Of a stretch of DNA of 40,523 nucleotides, positions 31,214 through 34,190 are shown piece after piece. How positions within the stretch are numbered: position 1 is the stretch's first letter; every line of letters starts with the position of its first letter. The stretch spans positions 1-40,523 of the forward strand of contig PQAJ01000034.1 of assembly GCA_003105185.1 (NCBI GenBank), written 5' to 3'. Below the pieces are notes generated by a model. The model saw only the letters and a program-made list of their open reading frames with translations. It had not been told where the DNA came from and searched no databases. The DNA is from Holophagae bacterium (lineage in GTDB: Bacteria > Acidobacteriota > Thermoanaerobaculia > Thermoanaerobaculales > Sulfomarinibacteraceae). The position numbers were made by a program, and so were the translations under genes.

Positions 31214-32143
31214 ATGCGGGACCACTACCCGCCGGCGAGCGTGGTCATTCCGACCCACAGCCGTCTCCGCGACCTGCAGAGGGTGGTGGCCGCAGTCGAG
31301 GACCAGTTCGCGCCCGGCGGTCGGCGGCCGGAGTTGATCGTCGTTGACGACGGCTCGAGCGACGGCACCGGAGACTGGCTGCGCCAGGAGTCGGGGAGTG
31401 GCCGCCTCCGCGCCCTGAGCCAGAGCAGCGCGGGCCCGGCGGTCGCCCGCAATCGGGGCGCAGCCGCTGCCACCGGCGAGGTGCTGCTGTTCCTCGGTGA
31501 CGACACCGTTCCGGAGCCCGGGTGGTTGCTGGCTCACCTCGAGGAGCACCGGCTGCACGGGGTCCGCCATCACCCGTTGGCAGTGGTCGGCTATACCGGC
31601 TTCCCGACTGCCGGGGAGACTCCCTTCCTTCGTTTCATCAATGAGTACGGGCCTCAGTTCGGCTACCTGCTGATCGAAGACGCGCGACGGCTTCCGTTCA
31701 ACTTCTTCTACACCTCGAACGTCTCGATCGACCGCGCGGAGATGGTGCGGCTCGGCGGGTTCCGGGAGGACTTCCCGGCGGCAGCCTGGGAGGACATCGA
31801 GTTCGCCTACCGGGCGGTCCGGGAAGGGCTGAGTATCCGCTACCAGCCGCAGGCCAGAGTCACTCACCACCACCGTATCCATCCACGGACGTTCTGTCGC
31901 CGACAGAGGACGGCGGGCCGCTCGGCTGCGATCTTCGCTCGGCTCCACCCCGAGCTCGCCAACTTCCTGGGCGTCGACCGGGTGCGGGCGCTGCGGCCCG
32001 GACAGCCCCTGCTGCGGGGGCTGTTGGCGCTGGCGGTCGGGCTCGGAGAGCGCGTGCCTGGACTGGTCCCGCCTCAGTTCCTGCAGCGATTCGTCGACGC
32101 CAGCTATCTGCAGGGTCTGGCAGGAGCCTTGCAGGAGATGTGA
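31214..32143 (+). CDS. family 2 glycosyltransferase
   Basis: ASVVIPTHSRLRDLQRVVAAVEDQ...LIVVDDGSSDGTGDWL...GPAVARNRGAAAATGEVLLFLGDDTVPE. Confidence 0.92.
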   Translation: MRDHYPPASVVIPTHSRLRDLQRVVAAVEDQFAPGGRRPELIVVDDGSSDGTGDWLRQESGSGRLRALSQSSAGPAVARNRGAAAATGEVLLFLGDDTVPEPGWLLAHLEEHRLHGVRHHPLAVVGYTGFPTAGETPFLRFINEYGPQFGYLLIEDARRLPFNFFYTSNVSIDRAEMVRLGGFREDFPAAAWEDIEFAYRAVREGLSIRYQPQARVTHHHRIHPRTFCRRQRTAGRSAAIFARLHPELANFLGVDRVRALRPGQPLLRGLLALAVGLGERVPGLVPPQFLQRFVDASYLQGLAGALQEM

Positions 32144-32157
32144 GCCGGAGGTGGTGC

Positions 32158-33012
32158 ATGCGCGGCAAACACTCCTGGACGCTGATGGCGGCGGTGGCTG
32201 GGTTTCTTGTCGCCGCTGCCGCGGCTGACGATGGTCCGCCGGCCGCGGGCGGGAAGCCCAACCCGACGGCGTCGGCCGAGGACGGCGCACGCGACGTACC
32301 GTGCAGCCCGGTGGCGACGGCGTGGCCCGTGTCCGGGTCCGGGCCCGCCACGCTCCAGGCGCCGCAGCTTGCGGTGGCGGTCACCGACATCAGACCCAAG
32401 GACGGCCTGGTCTTCCTCGATGGCCGGTTCGCCGGCCGCGCGCGGTACTTCAACGGCACCAATGGTTTCCTCTACCTCGAGCCGGGCGACTACCGCCTCG
32501 AGCTGCGGTTGGACGGGTACCGGACCGAGGCCTTTCAGATCGCGGCGCGACCGAGCTGTCTGTTCGAGATCCGGCACCGGATGCAGCGGTCCCACGGTCC
32601 GGCGGCCGAGGGAACGGCCCCCCCGGTTGGCAAGGGCGAGCCCGAGCAGTGGATCTGGGAGCCGGTCGCGGGCGCGGCAGCGGCGCCATCCGGCCCCACC
32701 CCACCAGCCGGGCCGGACGCCGCCTTGCGGCCGGACCTCGATCTCGGGCCCTCGACGGCAGCAGGGGTCGGTGCGCCCCGGGGATCGCTCCGGTTGCGCG
32801 TGAAGCCGCCCACGGCGGAGGTCTTTCTGGATGGCTCGTTCCTCGCCACCGGCCGGGAGCTCGACCTCATGGTCGCGCCGCTCGCCGTGCCTGCGGGGCG
32901 CCATGTCCTCGAGGTGCGGGCTCCGGGTTTTGCCAGTCGAACCGAGGAAATCTCGGCGGCTGCGGGAGGCGTGGTGGAGGTCGAGATCGTTCTCCAGAGG
33001 GGTCCCAGCTGA
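32158..33012 (+). CDS. secreted protein with two PEGA-like domains
   Basis: signal peptide; GLVFLDGRFAGRARYFNG..LEPGDYRLELRLDGY and AEVFLDGSFLATGRELD...VPAGRHVLEVRAPGF. Confidence 0.85.
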   Translation: MRGKHSWTLMAAVAGFLVAAAAADDGPPAAGGKPNPTASAEDGARDVPCSPVATAWPVSGSGPATLQAPQLAVAVTDIRPKDGLVFLDGRFAGRARYFNGTNGFLYLEPGDYRLELRLDGYRTEAFQIAARPSCLFEIRHRMQRSHGPAAEGTAPPVGKGEPEQWIWEPVAGAAAAPSGPTPPAGPDAALRPDLDLGPSTAAGVGAPRGSLRLRVKPPTAEVFLDGSFLATGRELDLMVAPLAVPAGRHVLEVRAPGFASRTEEISAAAGGVVEVEIVLQRGPS

Positions 33013-33029: not shown

Positions 33030-33058
33030 TTGACACGGTCCGGACGGGGCTTTACAAT
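33030..33058 (+). promoter_or_regulatory. near-consensus sigma70 promoter
   Basis: TTGACA (33030-33035), 17-nt spacer, TACAAT (33053-33058). Confidence 0.8.
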
Positions 33059-33064
33059 TTGCCG

Positions 33065-33257
33065 ACCAGACAGTAGAATGAGGCAACATTAGAGCATGGG
33101 AGGGATCCGGGAAGGCTTTCCACCTTGAGCCTGCCAACAACGGCCAACCTTTTGCGGCCAACCTATTGACTGCCTTTCATTTGATCCTGCCTGAAAAGCT
33201 CAACGGTCCCTCCCGACTCACGCTCGACGGCCCAGCCCCAACGGGCTGGGCCCTTTT
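33065..33257 (+). ncRNA. candidate orphan structured non-coding RNA (class unknown)
   Basis: promoter just upstream, intrinsic terminator at the end, no ORF between; 11-bp closing stem GGGAGGGA(U)CCG / CGGUCCCUCCC; inner stem GGCUUUC/GAAAAGCU; motif GCCAAC repeated three times. Confidence 0.6.
33229..33257 (+). terminator. intrinsic terminator
   Basis: GGCCCAGCCC-CAAC-GGGCTGGGCC followed by CTTTT. Confidence 0.85.
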
Positions 33258-33523: not shown

Positions 33524-33624
33524 CGTTTGATGTTTCCGACACGTGGTTGCTGGGAGAACGCCAGGTGAGGAGTCGGCGTCGAGTCGCGGCCTGGGTGGGA
33601 GGGTGGGCGAGCCGTCAACTCGGT
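33524..33624. repeat. dispersed repeat copy A (overlaps 3' end of yqgE)
   Basis: GTCGGCGTCGAGTCGCGGCCTGGGTGGGAGGGTGGGCGAGCCGTCAACTCGG; nearly repeated at 34849-34900. Confidence 0.75.
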
Positions 33625-34190
33625 GCGCCCGAGCCGAGGTCGACTAGGGCTCCCGGCTCGACGCCGATCGAGCGCAGAGCGGCGGTCCAGCGCTCCTCGA
33701 CCGGCACTTCAAAGATGATCGAGGTATTGAGGGGCGCCACCAGCCAGGAGTTGTCCTCGATCTCCTGCTCGAGCTGGCCGGGGTACCAGCCCGAGTAGCC
33801 GAGAAACAGGTGATAGCGGCCTCCGAGGCGGCCTCGCGCGAGGTTGGCGAGGGTCTCGGTGCTGCCCGAGACCATGATGTCGCTGTCGACGGCGAGCGCG
33901 GTCTCGTCGGGCTCTTGGCCGCTGCCCTCGAAGACGACGAAACCGTGGTTGGGCTCGACCGGGCCGCCAGCCAGGACCTGAGGGAGCTGCGCCTCGGCCA
34001 CCGTCTCGCCGAGCTCCTCGAGGATCTCGTTGAGCTCGACGCTGAGTGGGCGATTGATGACCAAGCCGAAGGCGCCCTCCTCCGTGGAGTGCACGCCGAC
34101 CAGGACCACGGCGTGCCAGAAGTTGGGATCGACCAGACCTGGCATGGCGATGAGCAGCTTGCCAGCCAGCGGGGTTGCGGCGTCGCTCAC
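33615..34190 (-). CDS. YqgE/AlgH (UPF0301) family protein
   Basis: LAGKLLIAMPGLVDPNFWHAVVLVGVHSTEEGAFGLVINRPL; VLAGGPVEPNHGFVVFE; YSGWYPGQLEQEIEDNSWLV. Confidence 0.95.
   Translation of the reverse strand: MSDAATPLAGKLLIAMPGLVDPNFWHAVVLVGVHSTEEGAFGLVINRPLSVELNEILEELGETVAEAQLPQVLAGGPVEPNHGFVVFEGSGQEPDETALAVDSDIMVSGSTETLANLARGRLGGRYHLFLGYSGWYPGQLEQEIEDNSWLVAPLNTSIIFEVPVEERWTAALRSIGVEPGALVDLGSGAPS

Follow-up and report, generated by a model that had tools for sequence, protein, structure and literature searches.

A free-standing RNA gene with six C-rich boxes

The window, by which we mean the whole 40,523-nucleotide stretch of DNA that was analysed, comes from a bacterium of the Acidobacteriota (Thermoanaerobaculales) and carries a gene that defines a new bacterial RNA family. 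Its repeating architecture is sharply defined, with about six CCNNYC boxes at a pitch of 14 nt in a loop closed by a long stem, and the family occurs in acidobacterial lineages that lack CsrA. The geometry poses a testable question, namely which protein reads CCNNYC six times. The explanation that we prefer, and to which we give roughly an even chance, is that the RNA acts as a multivalent decoy for a C-reading single-strand RNA-binding protein.

The predicted transcript, about 170 nt long, extends from position 33086 to 33257 of the plus strand; its start was placed from the -10 box and its end from the terminator. A plain sequence scan recovered the intrinsic terminator at 33229-33257 (plus strand), a GC-rich 10-bp hairpin (33229-33252) followed by CTTTT, as the first-pass annotation had described it. 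The predicted fold of the segment 33064-33258 was better than that of 200 out of 200 dinucleotide shuffles (z -3.0). Most RNA cores of the homolog set had no open frame.

Upstream of the RNA, on the same strand, lies a gene for a PEGA-domain protein (32140-33012, domain search). The downstream gene, which is not part of the RNA, is yqgE/AlgH-like (33615-34190, PF02622, E 2e-44) and convergent, located on the minus strand as the annotation had it. A convergent yqgE adjoins the RNA in 14 of the 19 loci of the family. In the other loci the neighbours change and the RNA is retained. Because the RNA stays while its neighbours differ, it was taken to be a free-standing gene. A yqgE leader was ruled out by the opposite orientation of yqgE and by the persistence of the RNA where yqgE is not a neighbour. 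The earlier call of an orphan gene for a non-coding RNA, not a leader, that has both a closing stem and an intrinsic terminator is supported. All the sequence elements were confirmed where they had been placed.

Comparison with known RNA classes

The view that the RNA belongs to no known class also held. The Rfam 15 search detected no family in the window at the gathering threshold, the best match at the locus in a permissive search had 15.7 bits (E 0.94), and six distant members gave no match up to E 1. A tRNA/tmRNA search of the window was negative. The loose resemblance to 6S RNA that had been noticed did not extend beyond size and the long closing stem: the 6S covariance model (RF00013) did not match the locus even at E 10, and the bona fide 6S RNA of the same genome was found elsewhere (G000:C136:2379-2557, 66.9 bits). 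Identity with 6S RNA was therefore ruled out.

Promoters

Promoter scanning and alignment of the oriented homologs identified a conserved sigma-70-type promoter, TTTACA-N17-TAGAAT, at 33051-33079 of the plus strand. Its counterpart in the homologs, TGGACA-N17/18-TATAAT, keeps a constant spacing of 16-21 nt from the stem that follows it. The promoter proposed in the first-pass annotation, TTGACA-N17-TACAAT (33030-33058, plus strand), is indeed present 21 nt further upstream, and with a score of 11/12 it is the better-looking of the two, but it is not conserved in the relatives and is probably not the one used. The expectation that goes with this score was 0.1 promoter-like sites in the 2.5 kb scanned; two promoter-like sites were recovered in all. 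The two sigma-70-like promoters overlap in tandem: at 33051-33058 the -10 box of the strong, non-conserved promoter overlaps the -35 box of the conserved one.

Copies belonging to a second paralog (see below) are preceded by sigma-54-type -24/-12 elements, TGGCACG or TGGCATG followed by N4-TTGC (TGGCAYG-N4-TTGC). Such promoters were seen at L073-L078, L155 and L142, which are paralogs or members of the RNA family; one of these is in a different class of the phylum.

The closing stem

Sequence inspection, folding and the family alignment agreed on the closing stem (P1+P2). Its 5′ strand, GGGAGGGA(U)CCG, occupies 33098-33109 and its 3′ strand, CGGUCCCUCCC, 33204-33214, both on the plus strand; the two strands enclose 94 nt, which bears out the original description. 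Of the inner stem that had also been proposed, approximately the GGC/GCU part is conserved (P3, GGC at 33114-33116 pairing with GCU at 33198-33200, plus strand, family alignment), whereas the rest is not. The alignment further indicated a family-level hairpin, GGCC/GGCC with ACCU in its loop (33142-33159, plus strand), which appears as GGCU/AGCC in three homologs and is gone from most of the sister family.

Covariation within the family was modest because the stem is nearly invariant: 96.7% of the cells were paired, three pairs had double changes, and one in 500 shuffles scored as high. Between lineages the stem sequence drifts and pairing is maintained, as illustrated by GGGAGGG/CCCUCCC, GGGCGG/CCGCCC, GGCGGUCA/UGACCGCC, and GGGGAUGCAA/UUGCAUCCCC versus GGGGAUGUAA/UUACAUCCCC. 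An inner stem CAAG/CUUG is also among the lineage variants that retain pairing. Little of the loop is conserved beyond the boxes and the stem, and no conserved tertiary-type helices were seen.

The six-box array

The stem-closed loop, 80-90 nt long, holds about six CCNNYC boxes spaced by approximately 14 nt. The motif GCCAAC, singled out in the first-pass annotation, does occur three times; the repeat that is conserved, and that is the real hallmark of the RNA, is the periodic CCNNYC. In the window five boxes are exact and one is imperfect. The imperfect box 1, CUUUCC (33116-33121), was assigned by box chaining and overlaps the conserved CCACCUUG at 33120-33127. Box enrichment and chaining together located box 2 (CCUGCC, 33130-33135), box 3 (CCAACC, 33144-33149), box 4 (CCAACC, 33158-33163), box 5 (CCUUUC, 33173-33178) and box 6 (CCUGCC, 33186-33191), all on the plus strand.

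The spacing of the C doublets was compared with shuffled sequences using 34 homologs. CC-N2-CC occurred 118 times (shuffle mean 44, maximum 63), whereas CC-N0-CC, i.e. CCCC, was found once versus 53 in the shuffles. Six chained boxes were counted in 18 of 38 RNAs and seven in 17 of 38. The pitch had its mode at 14 (90 of 209 spacings), with 80% of the values between 13 and 15, in a table that is partly built in since the chaining rule favours pitch 14; looser spacing lists compiled without the chaining rule likewise gave 14.

The usual form of the box is CC[U/A]A[C/U]C with a non-C on either side. Purines are almost never found at positions 0, 1, 4 and 5; a pyrimidine stands at position 4 and a C at position 5 (96%), and positions 2-3 vary. 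U is tolerated at positions 1 and 4, where C is usual. This pattern suggests that YC dinucleotides are recognised, not one antisense seed. The predicted probability of being unpaired was modestly higher for boxes than for spacers (0.65 versus 0.56, in silico), and in the window's family some of the box Cs pair within the GGCC/GGCC hairpin.

Distribution of the RNA

When 100 relatives were searched with blastn, no family but that of the window gave the block (E 1e-4 to 1e-26). A pattern scan of named records assigned the relatives to Thermoanaerobaculales/Thermoanaerobaculia. A covariance model based on 16 of the blastn homologs detected exactly one copy in 19 of the 20 family genomes (E 1e-16 to 1e-22), and the sole genome without it is 65% complete; the RNA block is thus conserved in related genomes. 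The covariance-model searches covered genomes of this phylum. At the sensitivity used, the RNA was absent from most of the class.

In the sister family a weak model match led to a divergent homolog, from which five more were reached by DNA similarity; all of these are preceded by sigma-54-type elements. Rebuilt covariance models then revealed a sigma-70-type ortholog in most sister-family genomes, in many cases directly 3′ of a PEGA-like gene, an arrangement also seen in the window. The copies with sigma-54-type promoters constitute a second paralog present in part of the sister family, and several genomes hold both types. G030, from another genus, has its own sigma-54-type second copy. In the sister-family genus g11 the sigma-54-type paralog adjoins a convergent secA (L115:5153-7993).

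RNAs of the same architecture were found in four genomes of another class of the phylum (G478, G500, G502 and G498), and an RNA with a sigma-54-type element in a further genome of that class (G161); the models that detected members outside the order had themselves been built from sequences containing the boxes. The closing helices of the four RNAs have 9-14 pairs, which was reached by 0-5 of 500 shuffled flanks. The E value of 0.001 at which G478 was detected, with a model built without it, is not significant by itself over 396 genomes. The case for the other class is carried by the 14-pair closing helix of G478, by the six near-perfect boxes of G500 inside GAGGGAUGC/GCAUCCCUC, by a base pair that differs in a compensatory way between G502 and G498 (C-G to U-A), and by a TPR-type gene that lies beside the RNA in both G500 and G502. 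These RNAs may be homologs or convergent designs, homology being less certain than within the order.

Two matches, in G143 and G270, were set aside because they are probably coding or due to chance. A weak match at L157 (G027:C167:10620-10695, E 0.9) has TTGACA...TACAAT upstream and is followed by a frame led by a start codon; it may represent a relative of the leader type or be due to chance. A holB-like gene (DNA polymerase III delta′, judged from the translation) lies beside the RNA, convergent and downstream, at the sister-family loci L133, L135 and L144, and upstream on the same strand at L140 in G478; this is possibly old synteny.

A proposed multivalent decoy and its alternatives

According to the preferred explanation, the RNA would be transcribed independently and terminated intrinsically, and pairing of its 5′ and 3′ parts would form the loop that exposes the boxes. 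A C-reading single-strand RNA-binding protein would then occupy several boxes at once and be held away from other transcripts. What was found agrees with such a role in that the RNA contains many copies of one short motif, enriched over shuffles and periodic, with a predicted single-strandedness that is modest. A second paralog under a sigma-54-type promoter is what one would expect were the supply of decoy under regulation.

Decoys of this general kind are known. CsrB/CsrC and RsmX/Y/Z are small RNAs that sequester CsrA/RsmA by many short protein-binding motifs, and their paralogs are under different promoters. They resemble the present RNA in being stand-alone, in carrying many copies of one motif and in their differing promoters, but their motif is GGA presented in hairpin loops, whereas here CCNNYC is arrayed in one large closed loop. 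A decoy for CsrA itself was ruled out: CsrA was found in none of the order's 37 genomes, and the RNA has no GGA array, its unit being CCNNYC. CrcZ/CrcY of Pseudomonas and Azotobacter are multi-motif decoys under sigma-54 control, which parallels the sigma-54-type paralogs described above; unlike the present RNA they have CA-rich motifs for Hfq/Crc and no stem-closed six-box loop, and Rfam gave no match to them. Judged by these analogies, equally pitched motif copies, variable middles, paralogs sharing little else and the use of different sigma factors resemble CsrB/CrcZ decoys more than antisense RNAs. A literature search on acidobacterial small RNAs found no precedent.

The modest unpairedness of the boxes and the pairing of some of their Cs count against a decoy, as do the modest covariation within the family and the less certain homology outside the order. 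So does Hfq, found in 36 of the order's 37 genomes, which would allow an Hfq-assisted antisense role. In that case several C-rich seeds would pair with G-rich sites near the ribosome-binding sites of many mRNAs, a reading to which we assign a little over a quarter of the probability. The tolerance of U at box positions 1 and 4 is compatible with pairing to G, two families have a conserved CCACYUUG block in common, and the literature offers a precedent in Listeria LhrC, described in terms of UCCC motifs and Shine-Dalgarno sites. LhrC1-5 and similar C-rich antisense RNAs share with the present RNA the repeated, single-stranded C-rich motifs. The UCCC motifs of LhrC, however, pair contiguously with Shine-Dalgarno sites, whereas here the unit is CC-N2-YC at fixed pitch. 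GGAGG would require CC-N1-CC, a spacing that is depleted (31 observed versus 42 in shuffles) where the two-base gap is enriched. Because the boxes have a two-base gap, anti-Shine-Dalgarno repeats are disfavoured. Moreover, pairing does not require six evenly pitched, near-identical boxes.

The deep conservation within one family and the stable closing stem could also suit a structural or catalytic RNA (a ribozyme or housekeeping RNA) in which the loop repeats are scaffold. This appears improbable in view of the poor conservation of the loop outside boxes and stem, the lack of conserved tertiary-type helices and the absence from most of the class noted above. Least credible by far, to the point of being negligible, is that the pattern arose by chance or is the remnant of a coding sequence, for instance a pentapeptide-repeat gene that has degenerated, with GCCAACCTG every 15 nt. 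The box pattern does match pentapeptide-repeat-like arrays in viral contigs; a pattern scan of such contigs returned mainly coding-like repeats of 15-nt period, a few period-14 or simple-repeat arrays with unconvincing closing stems, and no convincing viral homolog. The pitch of the RNA, 13-14 rather than 15, shows single-base variation; most cores lack an open frame, and promoter, stem and terminator are conserved. Data on frame and promoter already refute a pentapeptide-repeat origin.

Candidate readers of the boxes

Among the proteins named as candidates for the multivalent decoy, the Rho hexamer comes first; it has six primary sites that bind C-rich segments joined by short linkers. In a 2024 structure 60 nt of RNA are reported to extend over six protomers, each reading 5 nt and linked by 5 nt, with the consensus (AACCC)6 (PMC11018607). 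Descriptors of rut sites include YC dimers spaced 9-13 nt (PMC9160355). The six C-containing segments with an invariant YC match the number of protomers, and about six boxes at a modal pitch of 14 fall within a rut-like spacing of about 10-15 nt. The RNA may thus be a dedicated antagonist of transcription termination, a stem-closed mimic of the Rho loading site that wraps the primary sites of one hexamer per RNA and lowers termination; besides a constitutive copy, some lineages would have one induced through sigma-54. This special case, which is counted within the decoy explanation, we regard as tentative, with a chance of about one in five. The second C doublet, the fixed 2-nt gap and the non-C flanks exceed Rho's preference for YC, the 14-nt pitch is larger than the 10 nt per protomer, Rho is nearly universal whereas the RNA is found in few lineages, and no Rho decoy RNA was found in the literature searched. 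Rut sites are likewise unstructured, C-containing and regularly spaced for six protomers; they differ in being sequence-poor parts of mRNAs that are neither closed by a stem nor conserved as a gene. If the Rho reading is true, the RNA would be a dedicated regulator of Rho, which has no precedent in the literature searched.

Other readers that would fit a multivalent decoy are an oligomeric or multi-domain protein of the KH or cold-shock type, a second Hfq-like protein, and ribosomal S1. With any of these the RNA would serve as bait for discovering a regulator that binds RNA globally, in a phylum that has been little studied. The genomes of the order that encode Hfq usually have two paralogs, one of them typical. 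The second Hfq-family protein is divergent (about 30-38 bits, ORFs mostly of 115-160 aa, e.g. in G000:C61 and G000:C101) and could be a partner that binds RNA with an altered specificity.
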